Below, piece after piece: positions 55,274 to 62,609 of a stretch of DNA of 64,000 bases (position 1 is its first letter; each line of letters opens with the position of its first letter). This DNA is from Pseudomonadota bacterium. Its GTDB lineage: Bacteria > Pseudomonadota > Alphaproteobacteria > Rhizobiales > Hyphomicrobiaceae. Under the pieces are notes generated by a model. It saw only the letters and a program-made list of their open reading frames with translations. It did no database searches and was not told where the DNA came from. Made by a program: the position numbers and the translations under genes. The stretch spans positions 55,618-119,617 of the forward strand of contig JAFECE010000006.1 in assembly GCA_018242295.1 (NCBI GenBank), written 5' to 3'.

Positions 55274-55363
55274 GGAGGGGTGGCCGAGTGGTTTAAGGCA
55301 CCGGTCTTGAAAACCGGCGTGGGCGCAAGTCCACCGTGGGTTCGAATCCCACCCCCTCCGCCA
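55274..55363 (+). tRNA. tRNA-Ser (anticodon UGA)
   Basis: A complete 90-nt class II tRNA with encoded CCA (55361-55363). The acceptor stem GGAGGGG pairs with CCCCTCC, the anticodon stem is CCGGT/ACCGG and the loop CTTGAAA gives anticodon UGA (55308-55310). The variable arm GGGCGCAAGTCC and the GTTCGAATC T-loop are typical for tRNA-Ser. It reads serine UCA codons. tRNA genes are common integration sites, but no integrase or direct repeat is seen next to it. Confidence 0.97.
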
Positions 55364-56545: not shown

Positions 56546-56579
56546 TGTGAGACAAGTCCCAGACGGGACCTGCCTCACA
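56546..56579 (-). terminator. Strong hairpin terminating the guanidine operon
   Basis: A 15-bp stem (two G-U pairs on the minus-strand RNA) with a 4-nt loop: minus-strand TGTGAGGCAGGTCCC, loop GTCT, GGGACTTGTCTCACA. It begins 15 nt after the stop of the HupE gene. There is no immediate U-run, although TTTTT follows about 20 nt later. It marks the 3' end of the operon that starts at 61431. Confidence 0.75.
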
Positions 56580-56594
56580 CTCGCACAAAAGCTG

Positions 56595-57218
56595 TTAGCC
56601 CATTGCTCCGAGCAGTAGTGACAAGCCGACAAGGCCGCCGATCACGCCGGACACGCGTTTGAGCGTGAGCGCCGCCGATGGTTTCAGCTGATCGATGCAG
56701 AAGCTCGAGACCATTCCCGATACGTGGAGGAGCGAAGTTGCAGTTACGAATCCCACAGCATAGGGAAGGAAGGCGAAGCCCAGTCCGGCTCCCTCGTTAC
56801 CATGGGCATGACCATGGAAGACCGCGAAAAGTCCAACCACAGCCATCGCGATGACAGTCGGCGGGCGAACTCCAAGCCCAACCGCCACGCTTAAGGCAAC
56901 GACCGACAAGCCGATACCTTGTTCGACCATCGGCAGCGGCCAACCCTCATAGCCAAGTACGCCACCGAAAATCATCGCGGCGACGAATGCCGTGGGCACG
57001 AGCCACCGTGCGGATCCACCGATGTTCATGGCAAAGAATCCGACGGCCACCATCGCGATGATGTGGTCGATGCCGCTCATCGGATGCAGAAAACCCTGAC
57101 TGAACGTGTGGACGGCGCCCAACCCCACGTGAGCCGAAGCTGGCGCGGCCGCCGCGAACATCAGGACCGAGCCTGCGGCAAAAGCTTTTAGAACGTACTG
57201 TGCGCGTAAAAATTTCAT
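56595..57218 (-). CDS. hupE: HupE/UreJ-family nickel permease
   Basis: A 207-residue membrane protein of the HupE/UreJ nickel transporter family. It has a signal-peptide-like N-terminus (FAAGSVLMFAAAAPASA), then AHVGLGAVHTFSQGFLHPMS with the diagnostic HX5DH nickel motif (H45, D51, H52 in HPMSGIDH), and about six membrane helices, with a second His-rich motif in VFHGHAHGNEGAG. Its ribosome-binding AGGAGG overlaps the stop of the guanidinase gene, giving an 11-nt spacing and likely translational coupling. Nickel transport by this family is known; supply of the neighbouring nickel enzyme is inferred. The start MKFLRAQYV at 57218 is preferred over an open extension. Confidence 0.9.
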   Translation of the reverse strand: MKFLRAQYVLKAFAAGSVLMFAAAAPASAHVGLGAVHTFSQGFLHPMSGIDHIIAMVAVGFFAMNIGGSARWLVPTAFVAAMIFGGVLGYEGWPLPMVEQGIGLSVVALSVAVGLGVRPPTVIAMAVVGLFAVFHGHAHGNEGAGLGFAFLPYAVGFVTATSLLHVSGMVSSFCIDQLKPSAALTLKRVSGVIGGLVGLSLLLGAMG

Positions 57219-57229
57219 CGTATGCCCTC

Positions 57230-58459
57230 CTACTTCATGACTTTGCCGCGATGGCCGATTTTGCCGTTCGCCACCAGGGTTCCAAGCACATCGAGCACGA
57301 CCCGGCAGGCAAGCTGCGCCGTGTTGTCGTTGACGTCGTACGGCGGCGACACTTCGACGACTTCCATGCCGCACAGGCCCTCCGCCGCAATCGTATGGAT
57401 CATCTCAAAGGCCTCGCGCGGTAATAATCCGCCAGGCTCCGGCGAACCGGTTCCCGGAGCGAAGCCCGGATCGATCGAGTCGATATCGAACGACAGGTAG
57501 ACCGCCTTGCAGCCTTCCCACGCCATCTCGAGCGCGATTTCGGCCGCCTTCTTCGGACCGTGGTGCTGCACGTCGTGCATCGTCAGCACGCTCGTTCCTC
57601 GGCGCTTGGCAACGGCCGTGCCTGGACGGTTGCCGTACCAGCCGCCGATGCCGATCTGCACGAGATTTTTCGGATGGCAGTTCGGCAAGCCGACATCGTG
57701 CATGTGGCTATGGTCACGATGCGAGGCGTGCGTCCCTTCGTTCGTCGTCCAGAACCAAGGCGTCGTATGCATACGCTCATCCATATCCTTCTCTTGGATA
57801 TCGATGTGCCGGTCGATGTGGATGATGCCGACGTTGCCGTCGATGTGCGGAGCAATGCCCCTGACGTTGGGGAAGCCCAAGCTGTGGTCGCCGCCGCAAA
57901 TGATCGGGAAGACTCCCGACGTGTAGATATGCGAAACGGCCTTCGTCACCTGGTCGAACGTCTTCTCGATGTTGCCGGGAATGACGAAGATGTCCCCCGC
58001 GTCGCAAAGATCGAGTTCCTCGTAGATATCGACGCCGCCGTCGAACCAATAGCCGTCATAGAGCGCCGAGATCCGGCGAACGGCTTGCGGTCCGAAACGC
58101 GTGCCCGGCCGGTAGGTCGTCGCCGAGTCGAATGGCGCGCCGACGAAAGCCGCTTCGTAGTTACCGATCTTGCGGATGTCTTCGCAGTAGGGCGCCTTCA
58201 TGAACGTGTTGATGCCCGCGAACGCAGGCTGATGGCCACGACTGAACAACGAGATGTTGCGATCGATAACGGAGTCCGCAGCCTCGAGCCCATACTCAAG
58301 CGATCGGGAGACTTCCTCGTCCTGCTTTTTCTGAGAGATGCGAGACAACGTCTCCATGCTCTTCGCACCGTGCGTTTCATCACGCTTTACGCCATGGGAA
58401 TGGCCATGACGGTGCGTGTGGGGATGGTCGTGATCGTGATCCTTGGGGCTACGCGCCAT
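57230..58459 (-). CDS. gdmH: Guanidine hydrolase (GdmH-type ureohydrolase) with His-rich tail
   Basis: A 409-residue ureohydrolase that pipelines would call agmatinase. The metal site is H192 (CGGDHSLGFP), D216, H218, D220 (HIDRHIDIQEKD) and D325, D327 (SFDIDSIDP). Residues 70-92 (SLFSRGHQPAFAGINTFMKA) and DRH instead of the DAH of agmatinases match, from memory, the nickel-dependent guanidine hydrolase Sll1077 of Synechocystis, which makes urea and ammonia from guanidine. Agmatinase proper lacks these. Residues 8-22 are HDHDHPHTHRHGHSH, alternating His; a second insert, 241-262, adds six His. No signal peptide, so cytoplasmic. It follows the ABC transporter and precedes the nickel permease. 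Agmatinase remains the alternative. Confidence 0.83.
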   Translation of the reverse strand: MARSPKDHDHDHPHTHRHGHSHGVKRDETHGAKSMETLSRISQKKQDEEVSRSLEYGLEAADSVIDRNISLFSRGHQPAFAGINTFMKAPYCEDIRKIGNYEAAFVGAPFDSATTYRPGTRFGPQAVRRISALYDGYWFDGGVDIYEELDLCDAGDIFVIPGNIEKTFDQVTKAVSHIYTSGVFPIICGGDHSLGFPNVRGIAPHIDGNVGIIHIDRHIDIQEKDMDERMHTTPWFWTTNEGTHASHRDHSHMHDVGLPNCHPKNLVQIGIGGWYGNRPGTAVAKRRGTSVLTMHDVQHHGPKKAAEIALEMAWEGCKAVYLSFDIDSIDPGFAPGTGSPEPGGLLPREAFEMIHTIAAEGLCGMEVVEVSPPYDVNDNTAQLACRVVLDVLGTLVANGKIGHRGKVMK

Positions 58460-58522
58460 TTCGAAGTGACCTTTGCTGTGAGATATTTGAGACGATCGCA
58501 GAGTTGTCGAGTTTGCGAGCCG

Positions 58523-59668
58523 CTACTGCGGACCGAGCCGACCGATCCATCTGTTCGACGAGTATTTGGTTCCAAAGCCATCAGCCGCGATCCCAGCAAG
58601 AAGCGACGTGTCGAAGGCCTCGCTCGATTTGACCCTCTTCTGAGAAACGCCGGCCCCGAAATACGTGTCGCTGAACAGATCCCAAGTCGCTTCCGCATAA
58701 CCGGCAGTGCAATCAGGCCCGTTAAACAGCGAACCCCAGCCCTTGCCGTCAGGGGCGCGGGGCGCCTCTGGCGGCAGGCTTTCGCAGAGTGGCTTCCCGC
58801 CCGCCAAACCGAGGGCACCCATGTTCTGATTGATGTTGAGCATGATCGCGCCGTACTGATTGAGCTTCACGTCGGCGACAGGCCAGGAAAGACCGGCGGC
58901 GACGATCGCATCGCCTTCCTCCGGATTTTCCTTCCACCAGTTGACGGCCTCGAACCACGCGCGAAGCAGCTCCTTGGCGACCGCCGGTTTCGCGGCGAGC
59001 CACGCTTCGTTGCAGGCGATGGCATCGGAAATGAGCCCGCGTTCCCATGTGCGGTCTGTGAGGCTCGATTTGAATACCTTGGCGCCATCCCGCTTCAGAG
59101 ATTGGGAAGCGAACGGATCGTAATTGACGTCGATGTCGATGCCGCCGCTCGCGAACGCCGCCGCGCTCTCCTGCGGAAGCATGACAGCGTGTTGCAGCTC
59201 CTTCATGTCGATGCCTGCCCGCTTCATCGTGAGCAGCATCCACATATGATTGAGGAAGCCGTAGTCGGCGCCGAACTTCTTGCCCTTGAAGTCCTCGACC
59301 GTATTGATGTCCTTGGTCACCACCATCTTGTCGAGGCCGTAGGACATATCCGAAAACGCGACGACCTTGACCGGAAGATCGCCTGCGCGCGCCAGCACCA
59401 TGCTGTCCATGGTGTTGTTCATGCATTGGACCTGACCCGACGTGATCGCCGCGTTCTTTTCCGTGATGCCTTCGATGATCTTGACGTCGAGATCGATATC
59501 CTTCGCGAGGCCCTTCGCCTTGACGATGTACCAGGGCGCATAGGGCGAGAATGAAATAATCGCCACACTGACCTTTTCGGCAGCGCTGGCCAATGGTGCG
59601 CCTAGAGGCGCAGCCACGGCCGCCAAGCCGAGAGCGAGCAACGTGTTCGTGAACGACTTCGTTTTCAT
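58523..59668 (-). CDS. ABC transporter substrate-binding protein (NMT1/NitT-TauT type), probable guanidine binder
   Basis: A periplasmic binding protein of the SsuA/NrtA/THI5-like class. The 381-residue protein has a signal peptide (TNTLLALGLAAVAAPLGAPL, cleavage after ASA) and the start of the first lobe EKVSVAIISFSPYAPWYIVK, then GLAKDIDLDVKIIEGITEKN and FADYGFLNHMWMLL-like segments (KKFGADYGFLNHMWMLLTMK). The start MKTKSFTNT at 59668 has GGGAGA about 10 nt upstream. It sits between the ATPase gene and the guanidinase gene. The class covers taurine, nitrate, sulfonate and urea-like ligands; guanidine specificity is inferred from context. Confidence 0.88.
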   Translation of the reverse strand: MKTKSFTNTLLALGLAAVAAPLGAPLASAAEKVSVAIISFSPYAPWYIVKAKGLAKDIDLDVKIIEGITEKNAAITSGQVQCMNNTMDSMVLARAGDLPVKVVAFSDMSYGLDKMVVTKDINTVEDFKGKKFGADYGFLNHMWMLLTMKRAGIDMKELQHAVMLPQESAAAFASGGIDIDVNYDPFASQSLKRDGAKVFKSSLTDRTWERGLISDAIACNEAWLAAKPAVAKELLRAWFEAVNWWKENPEEGDAIVAAGLSWPVADVKLNQYGAIMLNINQNMGALGLAGGKPLCESLPPEAPRAPDGKGWGSLFNGPDCTAGYAEATWDLFSDTYFGAGVSQKRVKSSEAFDTSLLAGIAADGFGTKYSSNRWIGRLGPQ

Positions 59669-59726
59669 TTTTTGTCGTCTCCCTGAACGATCTTCGATCC
59701 CTGGATTTTTCGTCAAAGCAAATTGG

Positions 59727-60533
59727 TTATTTGATTTCCTCGCGCATCATCGCGAACAGCTGCCGCTCGAGCTCCGCATATCCCGGCATTTCGAGAAGCT
59801 CTTCTTTTTGCTTGATGCGCCGTCCGCCTTTGAAGGTGAGCGGGATATCGGCTTTGATGCGGCCGGGCTGGCGGCTGAAGAAGATGATGCGATCAGCCAG
59901 ATAAATCGCTTCCTCGATATCGTGCGTGATCGCGACGACCGTCTTCTTCTCACGCTCGATCAACTCGATCATGAGCTCCTGCATCTCCCAGCGAACCTGT
60001 GCGTCCAACGCGCCGAACGGTTCATCCATCAGGATGATCGCCGGATTTTGCGCCAGCGTTCGAGCGAGCGCGACGCGTTGCTTCATGCCGCCGGATAGAG
60101 CGCGCGGATACGCGTTGGCGAACTTCTCGAGATGCACGAGCTTCAGAAAATTCATCGTGCGTTCGCGCCGCTCTGCGGCGGGAACTTTCAGGATCTTCAT
60201 CCCGTATTCGACGTTCTGCATGGCCGTGAGCCACGGAAACGACGTATACGCCTGAAAGATCATGCCGCGATCGGGGCCGGGCCCTTGCACGTTCTTGCCG
60301 AACACTTCGAGCCGCCCGCGTGTCGGATACTCGAGACCGGCGATGATGCGCAGCATCGTCGTCTTTCCACAGCCTGACGGACCGACGAAGGCTGTGATTT
60401 GGTTGTCGTGCAGCTCGAACGAGACGTCGTCGAGCGCCTTGAAGGAACCGCCCAGATACTCTTTGGTGATGCGGGTCGCCTTCAGCGGGGGAACGTTTGT
60501 CACCGGCGTAAAGTCCTTTGCGACGATATTCAT
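59727..60533 (-). CDS. ABC transporter ATP-binding protein (NitT/TauT type)
   Basis: The 268-residue ATPase of the importer. It has Walker A FVGPSGCGKTTMLRIIAGLE, the Q-loop IFQAYTSFPWL, signature ALSGGMKQRVALARTLAQNP, Walker B AIILMDEPFGALDAQ and the switch His VVAITHDIEEAIYLAD. It is 1 nt after the permease gene, which suggests coupled translation, and 58 nt before the binding-protein gene. Confidence 0.95.
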   Translation of the reverse strand: MNIVAKDFTPVTNVPPLKATRITKEYLGGSFKALDDVSFELHDNQITAFVGPSGCGKTTMLRIIAGLEYPTRGRLEVFGKNVQGPGPDRGMIFQAYTSFPWLTAMQNVEYGMKILKVPAAERRERTMNFLKLVHLEKFANAYPRALSGGMKQRVALARTLAQNPAIILMDEPFGALDAQVRWEMQELMIELIEREKKTVVAITHDIEEAIYLADRIIFFSRQPGRIKADIPLTFKGGRRIKQKEELLEMPGYAELERQLFAMMREEIK

Positions 60534-60534
60534 T

Positions 60535-61431
60535 TTACGATCTCCGCTCGACGTTCCACGGGAACAGCACGCGGCAGGCCCCCCGGAAAATCAGGTCTGT
60601 CAGCAGGCCCAACGCACCGATCGTGACGATGCCGGCCATGATCACGTCGACGTTGAGAAAACGTCCGGCGCGCATCATCACGGCTCCGATGCCATCCTGC
60701 GCACCGACGATCTCCGCGATGACCAGATAGGTCCAGCTCACCGCGATCATGTTGCGCATGGAGTCGAAGATTGCCGGAAGAGCCGCTGGGACGACGATCC
60801 CGGTGAGAATGACGCGGCGTGATGCGCCCATCGTCAAACCGGCTTCCACGAACTCTTTTTGGATAGCGGTGGTGTTATCGAGAACCAGCGAGATCAGGAA
60901 GAAAATGACACCGATGAAGAGGAGCGCAATCTTCGCCTGATCTGTCGGCCCGAACCAGACGAGCAGCAGCGGAATAAAGGACGCGGCTGGCAGATACCTC
61001 CAAGCCGTCAACGTCGGATTGAAGAGCGCGCGAATGTTTCCGAAGCAGCCCATCAGAATGCCGATCGGCACGCCGATCGCCGACGCCGCCAGGAAGCTGA
61101 CGAAAATCCGCCCGCAGCTGATAGAGACGTCGTGGAGGAAGTTGCGTTCGGCGAACAGAACGTAAAGGGCGGACCCCACCTCGCCGATCGACGGGAAGAA
61201 CTTGCGAGCCGGCGCTGGCGTTAGATAGTGGCCGGCCTCCCACAATCCGAAGAAGGCCAGCGCGCCGATGAACGCCAGAACGGCGGCTCGCTGTGCACTC
61301 GGCTGTCTTCTAAACTCGAAAAACCGCTCTTTCGGTGGAATATAAAGTGGCGCGGCTTCCGCGTTTTCGCTTGGCAGATTTTCAAGCGAGGAAACTGAAG
61401 CGTCGCGCGATTTGGACATCGCACTTTCCAA
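60535..61431 (-). CDS. ABC transporter permease (NitT/TauT type)
   Basis: The 298-residue inner-membrane subunit. Helices are visible at about 50-68 (AAVLAFIGALAFFGLWEAG), 100-130, 150-170, 180-200 and at the C-terminus. The EAA coupling loop is VEAGLTMGASRRVILTGIVV. TTG 61431 has GGAGGG 7 nt upstream; the ATG at 61419 (GGAAAG upstream) is an alternative. It is the first gene of the operon after the 209-nt leader. Confidence 0.93.
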   Translation of the reverse strand: MESAMSKSRDASVSSLENLPSENAEAAPLYIPPKERFFEFRRQPSAQRAAVLAFIGALAFFGLWEAGHYLTPAPARKFFPSIGEVGSALYVLFAERNFLHDVSISCGRIFVSFLAASAIGVPIGILMGCFGNIRALFNPTLTAWRYLPAASFIPLLLVWFGPTDQAKIALLFIGVIFFLISLVLDNTTAIQKEFVEAGLTMGASRRVILTGIVVPAALPAIFDSMRNMIAVSWTYLVIAEIVGAQDGIGAVMMRAGRFLNVDVIMAGIVTIGALGLLTDLIFRGACRVLFPWNVERRS

Positions 61432-61449
61432 GGCTTACCCTCCCGACAA

Positions 61450-61480
61450 AGACTGAAAAATCAGGCGTTTTGTTCAGTCT
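61450..61480 (-). promoter_or_regulatory. Leader hairpin just before the permease ribosome-binding site
   Basis: AGACTGAA (61450-61457) and TTCAGTCT (61473-61480) form an 8-bp perfect stem with a 15-nt loop, on the minus-strand RNA 10-15 nt before the GGGAGGG of the permease gene. It could act as attenuator or translational control element. It does not match any guanidine riboswitch class that I know. Confidence 0.45.
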
Positions 61481-61548
61481 GAGTTGCTGTGAAGAAGGTA
61501 GCGGGGCGGGCATCTCCAAGAAAACGCCCAAAATCGGAATGGAAAGCA

Positions 61549-61569
61549 TTGCCAGCACCTATGGTGCAA
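61549..61569. promoter_or_regulatory. Dyad in the operon leader, candidate LysR operator
   Basis: The perfect 13-bp dyad GCACCTATGGTGC (61555-61567) lies inside a wider TTGC...GCAA frame, about 120 nt upstream of the operon start and 70 nt after the LysR gene. LysR-type regulators bind dyads of this kind in the -75 to -35 region (known). The assignment is by position and symmetry only. Confidence 0.45.
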
Positions 61570-61640
61570 CGCGAACGCCGCCTACGATGGCAGTGCACCC
61601 AAGCGCATGCACTTTCGACTTCGGCGATTGCGGAATTTAG

Positions 61641-62609
61641 TTAGTCAGCCGCCTCGTCAGCACCGACGAGTGCGCGAAGTCGGTTTGCTTCGGCGATGAC
61701 AAGCTTCAATTCTTCAATGAAAAAGATGTGAGCCATGTGCCAAGGCCGGTCGGGATTTGAGATGATGAAAATTTCCATCGCCGGCGCATTGCGTTTTCCA
61801 AGCAGTGGCCACAGTCGGCCTGTCGAAACGTCGGGCGCCGCATAGCCATCGGGAAGAAAGCACACCCCCACGCCCAAAATCGCAAGCCGGCGCGCCTCTT
61901 CCAGATGTTGAGAGATTCCCGACACCTTTTGCCCAATTCCGTATTTCAGCCGGAAATCGGAGAGCTGATCGGGTTCGTCGGCGCCGGTCAGGATGAACGA
62001 CTCCTGCGCCAGTGCTTTGGGATCGAGAATTTTATGGCCATAGAGGCGATGACTGCGCCCGCAATAGGGACGATGAATTTCGCGAAACAACGGATGATAA
62101 ATGAGATCCGCCCGTTTGCTTCGCGATGGCGCGACGCCGATGTCGATCTCCTTCCGAAGCAACGCGTTGATGACATCCGACCAGCTCGCCACGTCGACGA
62201 TCAACTCGACATTCGGACACTTCCTGTGAAAAGACGTGATCACGTCGTCAAAAACTTCGCTGACCACATTGCTGATCATTTTGATGCGCACAGGGCCGCT
62301 GACCATGTTGACCGAATCGGCCATGGCGTCTGGAATGCCGCGAACCAGCGCCTTCAATTTCATGCAGGTATCGGCGAGTGCGCGGCCCTCGTCCGTCAGC
62401 TCGAAGCCGCTCGGGCCTCTTTCACACAGACGTACATTGAGGTGACCTTCAAGCCGTTGCAGAGCAAGGCTTATCGAGGGCTGTTTGCGCCGCAAAAGCT
62501 CGGCGGCCGATGTGACGCCGCCCGTTTCGGCGATGATGCAGAAGATCTTGAAAAGGTTCCAGTCGAGATTCCGGATAAAGTCGTCGTGCCGAATGTTCTT
62601 CGAAGACAT
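61641..62609 (-). CDS. LysR-type transcriptional regulator
   Basis: A 322-residue LTTR. The N-terminal winged helix-turn-helix is DWNLFKIFCIIAETGGVTSAAELLRRKQPSISLALQRLE, about 16-55, followed by a linker helix and an effector domain (VRIKMISNVVSEVFDDVITS to the C-terminus). It lies upstream of, and in the same direction as, the transporter-guanidinase operon with a 209-nt gap. Control of that operon, and guanidine or urea as effector, are inferred from position. Confidence 0.92.
   Translation of the reverse strand: MSSKNIRHDDFIRNLDWNLFKIFCIIAETGGVTSAAELLRRKQPSISLALQRLEGHLNVRLCERGPSGFELTDEGRALADTCMKLKALVRGIPDAMADSVNMVSGPVRIKMISNVVSEVFDDVITSFHRKCPNVELIVDVASWSDVINALLRKEIDIGVAPSRSKRADLIYHPLFREIHRPYCGRSHRLYGHKILDPKALAQESFILTGADEPDQLSDFRLKYGIGQKVSGISQHLEEARRLAILGVGVCFLPDGYAAPDVSTGRLWPLLGKRNAPAMEIFIISNPDRPWHMAHIFFIEELKLVIAEANRLRALVGADEAAD

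Follow-up and report, generated by a model that had tools for sequence, protein, structure and literature searches.

We analysed a group of six genes in a window of 64 kb (the whole stretch of DNA studied, from contig JAFECE010000006.1; positions refer to it), in which an arginase-family hydrolase is encoded together with an ATP-binding cassette (ABC) importer, a LysR-type regulator and a nickel permease. The original prediction, made from the sequence alone, was a guanidine uptake and hydrolysis operon. The coordinates and the Pfam matches agreed with the six same-strand genes and the families that it named. All six genes lie on the minus strand, in the order of transcription LysR, permease, ATPase, binding protein, hydrolase and HupE. 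The features are as follows.

61641-62609, minus strand: LysR-type regulator (PF00126, PF03466), heading the group
60535-61419, minus strand: ABC permease (PF00528)
59727-60533, minus strand: ABC ATPase (PF00005)
58523-59668, minus strand: periplasmic binding protein of the NMT1/SsuA type (PF09084)
57230-58459, minus strand: arginase-family hydrolase of the nickel-type ureohydrolases (PF00491, 252 bits)
58394-58438, minus strand: His-rich N-terminal stretch of the hydrolase, residues 8-22, read from the translation
57686-57745, minus strand: His-rich insert of the hydrolase, residues 239-258, ending HRDHSHMHDVGL, directly behind the DERMHTTPW loop
56595-57218, minus strand: HupE/UreJ nickel permease (PF04955, 164 bits)
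56546-56579, minus strand: hairpin with a 15-bp stem and a 4-nt loop, 3' of HupE (RNA fold)

The gaps calculated from the coordinates are 1 nt (permease-ATPase), 58 nt (ATPase-binding protein), 63 nt (binding protein-hydrolase) and 11 nt (hydrolase-HupE), as originally given, but 221 nt separate the LysR gene from the permease gene. LysR may therefore be transcribed separately from the rest of the group. The hairpin said to close the unit is present, with a folding energy of -41.2 kcal/mol against -19.6 kcal/mol for shuffled sequences (z -7.5). It was not among the predictions of the terminator scan, presumably because the T-run does not directly follow the stem. The same gene order, with folD in front, was found in three further Hyphomicrobium records (L070, L071 and L072). 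The line-up is therefore not due to chance, and the view that these genes belong together held.

The hydrolase and its clade

The closest solved structures were the guanidinases of N. inopinata (9FEK, 439 bits) and Sll1077 (437 bits), followed at a distance by guanidinobutyrase (161 bits). The identity was 55.9% to Sll1077 (7ESR) and 53.6% to 9FEK, and 29-33% to the other ureohydrolases compared. The hydrolase missed the cut-offs of the agmatinase and arginase models (TIGR01230, 153 against 174.3 bits; PRK02190, 197 against 302; rocF, 108 against 228), and its match to the hutG model was also below the cut-off. In the alignment, six metal-ligand positions (H192, D216, H218, D220, D325 and D327) are kept. 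Thr115 (codon 58115-58117, minus strand), the equivalent of guanidinase Thr97/Thr105, is also kept, as are His231 (guanidinase His222) and Glu369 of the substrate site. Thr, His and Glu are the residues proposed for guanidine hydrolysis.

The aligned substrate site differs at one position. Ser339 (codon 57443-57445, minus strand) stands at the place of Trp305 in Sll1077 and Trp313 in the N. inopinata enzyme. According to PMC11410670, guanidine specificity depends on the Thr and the Trp, and Thr, His and Trp are all demanded for a guanidinase call; the window hydrolase, with Ser339, lacks the Trp. The His-rich insert is 20 residues long, against 5 in the Trp-type enzymes. A predicted AlphaFold model of the hydrolase from a seven-row alignment had a mean pLDDT of 34.9 and was not used as evidence.

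Homologues of the hydrolase (E <= 1e-60) were found in 45 of 397 genomes of the order, with 46 matches. The Trp site was read in 34 of these. Seven (from six genomes, window included) had Ser or Thr together with the insert and were at least 74% identical to the window hydrolase; the other 27 had Trp and no insert. By their identity of 56-63%, the remaining 12 matches fall outside the insert clade. Of 103 genomes of the family, 9 carry a copy of at least 90% identity (two of them two copies), and 2 carry a 58% copy. A scan of species genomes gave 80 loci. Its search patterns were derived from the clade, and one of them falls within the insert, so the search itself fixes the proportion of loci that bear the insert. 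The insert was present at 41 loci, 19 with Ser, 20 with Thr, 2 cut before the site and none with Trp, so that Ser or Thr occupies the site in each of the 39 insert-bearing relatives in which it is readable. Trp was found at 34 loci, none with the insert, and Ser or Thr without the insert at 5.

A 94-row tree recovered the 37 rows with the insert as monophyletic (support 99/99). These and three rows with Ser, from Arthrobacter, Pseudarthrobacter and an uncultured bacterium, made up one side (97/83); 9FEK and Sll1077 were on the opposite side (93/85), with two Thr-bearing Bacillota rows. Judged by its sequence, the window hydrolase belongs to a sister clade of the guanidinases and is not an agmatinase. 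Its description as GdmH-like is thus right as to kinship, but not as to the guanidinase side of the tree, and together with the change of Trp to Ser339 this position speaks against guanidine as the substrate. It could still be argued that the locus is a true guanidine uptake-and-hydrolysis operon, in which the insert takes over the role of a replaceable Trp: guanidinases are the closest characterised kin, and the Thr, His, Glu and metal positions are kept. With the Trp lost and the enzyme placed in the sister clade, we regard this explanation as unlikely; the importer and the host genome bear on it further below.

The three Ser-bearing rows (L103, L104 and L105) have no insert, and DERMHTTHF/Y replaces DERMHTTPW; this sister group perhaps represents a third specificity. 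The two Thr-bearing rows on the guanidinase side (L113, Bacillus; L115, Paenibacillus) have DERMHGTPW, an independent change. Hyphomicrobium, Methyloceanibacter, Aminobacter and Mycoplana, which are methylotrophic genera, are among the members of the insert clade. In viral contigs, 84 stretches matched a search pattern, none of which encodes a relative of the hydrolase.

The gene neighbourhoods vary. The hydrolase gene adjoins an amidohydrolase gene (PF04909 in L092, its kin elsewhere) in L092, L093, L094 and L147, where a copy of the same importer lies on the opposite strand; L092-L094 additionally have a polysaccharide-deacetylase-like gene. An AllG-family protein (PF06545) is encoded near the hydrolase in L074, L079, L087 and L088 (1287-2546, about 90 nt upstream). 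An APC permease with a protein of about 259 residues nearby is common to both enzyme clades (L080, L081, L084 and L127, and Trp-type L110-L112); the latter protein has no Pfam match in L084.

The importer and its links to dimethylguanidine hydrolase genes

The original prediction also regarded the importer as one for guanidine. The window binding protein is 25-27% identical to four guanidine-type binding proteins, which are 62-71% identical among themselves, and it scored 48 bits against a cut-off of 334 with the model of the guanidine-type binding protein, TIGR03427. Compared with the importer of a guanidine carboxylase operon in the host genome and with those of Trp-type L047, L048 and L050, the identities were 25-27% for the binding protein, 24-29% for the permease and 35-41% for the ATPase; the importers of these three loci are themselves 53-64% identical to the host guanidine importer. 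The nearest outside kin found were the importers of two operons with genes of the dimethylguanidine hydrolase (dmgH) type, in G038 and G079 (permease 50%, ATPase 55-58%, binding protein 28-31%). In the permease tree (39 rows), 13 insert-clade permeases grouped together (100/99) and were joined to the two permeases of these operons (100/100). In the ATPase tree (42 rows), 13 insert-clade ATPases were likewise joined to the two ATPases (100/98). Neither tree grouped the window importer with the importers of guanidine operons. The low identity of the binding protein and the two trees place the importer elsewhere than the guanidine kind. Importers that are not in line with the hydrolase (L073, L095 and L100, 4-6 kb off; L086, 72 nt away on the opposite strand) fall elsewhere in the trees, and because of them the clade label needs two changes on the permease tree and four on the ATPase tree.

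Kin of the binding protein (at least 50% identity, within 6 kb) occur at 14 of the 41 insert-clade loci against none of the 34 Trp-type loci, and kin of the LysR protein (at least 42% identity, within 6 kb) at 18 against none. The binding-protein linkage extends to L098, labelled Gammaproteobacteria, and to L092-L094 and L147 with their opposite-strand arrangement, and has therefore survived rearrangement. It might be supposed that the genes are neighbours without a common function and that the importer serves a sulfonate- or taurine-like ligand. The NCBIfam matches of the binding protein are indeed mostly to sulfonate or taurine families, every one below its cut-off; but the recurrence of its kin by the hydrolase, kept through rearrangement, makes this explanation highly improbable.

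Genes of the dmgH type also lie beside the hydrolase. A run of hypB, dmgH alpha and dmgH beta genes adjoins it at 2 of the 41 insert-clade loci. In L080, hypB, hypA, dmgH alpha, dmgH beta and a Ser-type hydrolase follow one another on a single strand. In L098, a binding protein and a Ser-type hydrolase are followed by an AsnC-type regulator on the other strand and then by hypB, dmgH alpha and dmgH beta; against the metformin hydrolase subunits, this alpha scored 576 bits and this beta 508 bits. The dmgH-type operon of G079 has the order permease, binding protein, ATPase, HypB-like, HypA, dmgH alpha, an open reading frame at the place of beta, UreF and urease alpha, and in G038 permease, binding protein, ATPase and dmgH alpha are consecutive on one strand. 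Among the 397 order genomes, the insert clade was present in six and a dmgH-type alpha in four, with both in two (p 0.0011, ignoring kinship). A class-level sample of 385 genomes, with the clade in two (one of them the host) and dmgH-type genes in none, was too sparse for co-occurrence.

The window operon has a single hydrolase gene and no alpha-beta pair of the DmgH/MefH kind; the identity of its product to the subunits of L080 and L098 is 31-33% (alpha) and 29-30% (beta). In the accessible part of PMC11399263, residues 288-290 are Ser-Thr-Ser in DmgH and Asn-Ser-Ala in MefH, and this triplet is proposed to set specificity. In our alignment (8SNF_D numbering, one above that of the paper), the triplet is Ser-Thr-Ser in the alpha of L080 and Thr-Thr-Ala in those of L098 and L168. 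Its third residue, Ser in L080 and Ala in L098 and L168, aligns with the guanidinase Trp and with Ser339 of the window hydrolase. At L073, L078 and L144, an APC permease adjoining the hydrolase scores 844-861 bits with the model of the trimethylamine N-oxide permease, above its cut-off of 690.

Guanidine, urea and nickel in the host genome

No guanidine riboswitch was found by Rfam in the 64-kb window, nor around the operon at a permissive threshold; the sole permissive match near the operon, to vertebrate telomerase RNA (E 0.48), was taken as chance. Fourteen Trp-type loci were fetched, and all eight of them given to Rfam have a guanidine-I riboswitch, against none of six Ser/Thr loci (p 0.0003, ignoring kinship). 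One of these six, L035, lies on a contig that starts 1.4 kb before the hydrolase, so that an upstream element could be missed there. Outside the operon, the window has a tRNA gene (55274-55360, 64.5 bits) in front of the gene of an LTXXQ-motif protein.

At another host locus, G000:C4, a guanidine-II riboswitch (37.7 bits) stands amid a single-strand guanidine carboxylase operon. On one side of it are genes for a TIGR03427 binding protein (540 bits), a permease and an ATPase. On the other side are those for two proteins of the carboxyguanidine deiminase type (TIGR03425 and TIGR03424), a carboxylase (TIGR02712, 1891 bits) and an allophanate hydrolase (775 bits). NCBIfam names these proteins after urea. 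The carboxylase, however, has Asp at K. lactis position 1330 (counted by hand on an alignment that ends before the target's position 1584), the guanidine-type residue in the accessible part of PMC11410670. From these matches, guanidine catabolism in the host has an operon of its own, of the carboxylase type and with its own importer. On the same contig, a guanidine-II-like match (L066 6034-6074, G000:C4:98033-98073; 31.2 bits, cut-off 32) lies about 490 nt upstream of a lanmodulin gene (NF053806, 157 bits).

It had further been supposed that the urea would feed a urease elsewhere. With the urease alpha model TIGR01792, the host scored 28.6 bits against a cut-off of 680; the host and G140 were below it and 10 of 12 genomes above it, with 717-1000 bits. 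A host match to PF00449 (24.5 bits, cut-off 23), which covers 48 of 121 positions of a 471-residue frame, was rejected as a urease and taken as a distant amidohydrolase, because the full-length model gives the same place only 28.6 bits. No credible urease alpha gene was therefore found in the host genome, the alpha subunit alone having been sought, and that supposition is not supported. The other guanidine operon, the absence of a credible urease, the importer and the missing riboswitch all argue further against guanidine as the substrate of the window operon.

The link between the nickel permease and the ureohydrolase was reproduced: in the species scan, HupE or a NicO-like protein was encoded within 6 kb at 17 of the 41 insert-clade loci and at none of the 34 Trp loci, NicO being called by a sub-threshold Pfam match and only 24 of the 41 having 4 kb on both sides. 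At the order level, kin of HupE occur at 3 of 14 Trp loci (L039, L047 and L048), with a partial one at L046, so HupE does not distinguish the clade. The genome-wide search, which covered HypA but not HypB, was negative for the host and for 3 of the 5 other insert-clade genomes tested; HypA was present in 4 of 6 Trp-type genomes. The active site of the window hydrolase would hold nickel, and its His-rich stretches may hold the metal in place of a HypA chaperone.

Methylamine-fixing GmaS enzymes are often annotated as type III glutamine synthetase. Two genes like type III glutamine synthetase were above the cut-off in the host; at least one was present in 12 of 12 genomes tested, against 1 of 14 control genomes.

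Proposed function and comparison with known systems

The best reading of the hydrolase is a nickel N-methylguanidine (or other N-alkylguanidine) hydrolase that would supply methylamine, the substrate being predicted. The chances are about even that the window operon serves the uptake and hydrolysis of an N-methylated guanidine, most likely N-methylguanidine; its substrate, products and induction are predicted from the genes. LysR, as the presumed sensor, would control uptake, the ABC importer would take in the N-methylated guanidine cation, and HupE would supply nickel. The dinuclear ureohydrolase, presumably dinickel, would cleave the substrate to urea and methylamine. Methylamine would be used via the enzymes like type III glutamine synthetase, and urea would be lost or slowly used. 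Hyphomicrobium is a methylotrophic genus, for which methylamine would be the useful product, and this would explain how the host can do without a urease.

The proposed reaction is that of methylguanidinase (EC 3.5.3.16), for which we know of no sequence; no sequence link between the window hydrolase and this enzyme could be made. A wider proposal, offered tentatively and at somewhat below an even chance, is that the Ser/Thr clade with the His-rich insert makes up a family, not yet described, of nickel N-methylguanidine hydrolases encoded by single genes, and supplies the sequence so far lacking for methylguanidinase. It would feed methylamine metabolism in methylotrophs and other proteobacteria, with an importer lineage common with dimethylguanidine hydrolase operons.

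Several observations weigh against these proposals. The strongest is a borderline guanidine-II riboswitch match (32.5 bits, threshold 32) in front of the LysR, APC permease, hydrolase and HupE genes at the second hydrolase copy of Hyphomicrobium facile, one of the six Ser/Thr loci mentioned above; it favours guanidine. The LysR of this copy (L033 8007-13123) is a different one, and its APC transporter resembles the trimethylamine N-oxide permease. The dmgH linkage, at two insert-clade loci against none of the 34 Trp-type loci, is not significant alone (p 0.50); the four order genomes with dmgH-type genes are all of one family, two of them only 61-71% complete; and the ligands of the importers in dmgH-type operons are likewise predicted. 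In the trees, the importers at Trp-type loci of Bacillota and other phyla belong to still other types. That the window importer contrasts with the guanidine importer is therefore no more than suggestive, and we dropped the idea that the ligand can be told from importer orthology alone. A search for the methylamine dehydrogenase light chain gave no match in the host and matches in 2 of 12 genomes. Urease is present in 4 of the 6 insert-clade genomes tested, so that a missing urease does not characterise the clade.

Part of the insert clade, moreover, has other neighbours (polysaccharide-deacetylase-like or allantoinase-like, amidohydrolase and AllG-type), and substrates may therefore differ within it. 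The hydrolase and transporter might serve another guanidino compound, such as a guanidino acid, hydroxyguanidine or a creatine- or purine-derived compound. These neighbours would fit such a role, and guanidinobutyrase 3NIO likewise has a small residue (Thr) at the Trp site in the alignment. Such neighbours are absent from the window operon, however, the identity to the other ureohydrolases compared is low, and the linkage is to dmgH-type genes and importers. We consider this explanation quite improbable.

If an N-methylated guanidine is the substrate, a second enzyme family and a sister importer would point to a natural methylguanidine pool as a source of carbon and nitrogen. Genes named agmatinase by pipelines, or guanidinase by homology, would degrade methylated guanidines, and the change of Trp to Ser/Thr plus the His-rich insert would be a simple rule separating the two enzyme kinds. 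GdmH homology alone would then be insufficient to call guanidine use. The accessible part of PMC11399263 calls it unclear why bacteria have a dimethylguanidine-specific system, and that of PMC12508155 describes a different methylguanidine route, with a dioxygenase and a lyase. We found no description of the insert clade in the accessible parts of the literature on guanidine and methylguanidine hydrolases; it may figure in the class 'inferred not guanidinase' of PMC11410670.

The operon resembles three known systems. Operons of an ABC importer and a GdmH-type enzyme are already published in the accessible parts of PMC8390497 and PMC11410670. The GdmH-type guanidinases (Sll1077, 7ESR/7OI1; N. 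inopinata, 9FEK) share with the window hydrolase the ureohydrolase family, 54-56% identity, the metal positions and the Thr, His and Glu, and Sll1077-type operons also have an NMT1/SsuA-type ABC importer. Unlike them, the window has Ser for Trp, the His-rich insert, a place in the sister clade, another importer lineage, HupE, no HypAB-type chaperone genes in the operon and no guanidine riboswitch, a feature common but not universal at GdmH-type loci. The host guanidine carboxylase operon is alike in its NMT1-type ABC importer and in serving the catabolism of a guanidine compound, but differs in its guanidine-II riboswitch, its TIGR03427 binding protein and its carboxylase, deiminase and allophanate hydrolase chemistry. 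The DmgH/MefH operons likewise encode nickel ureohydrolases with a small residue at the Trp place and, in published operons, HupE downstream; those of G038 and G079 have an ABC importer related to that of the window. DmgH and MefH are alpha-beta heteromers accompanied by HypA/HypB, whereas the window enzyme is encoded by a single gene.

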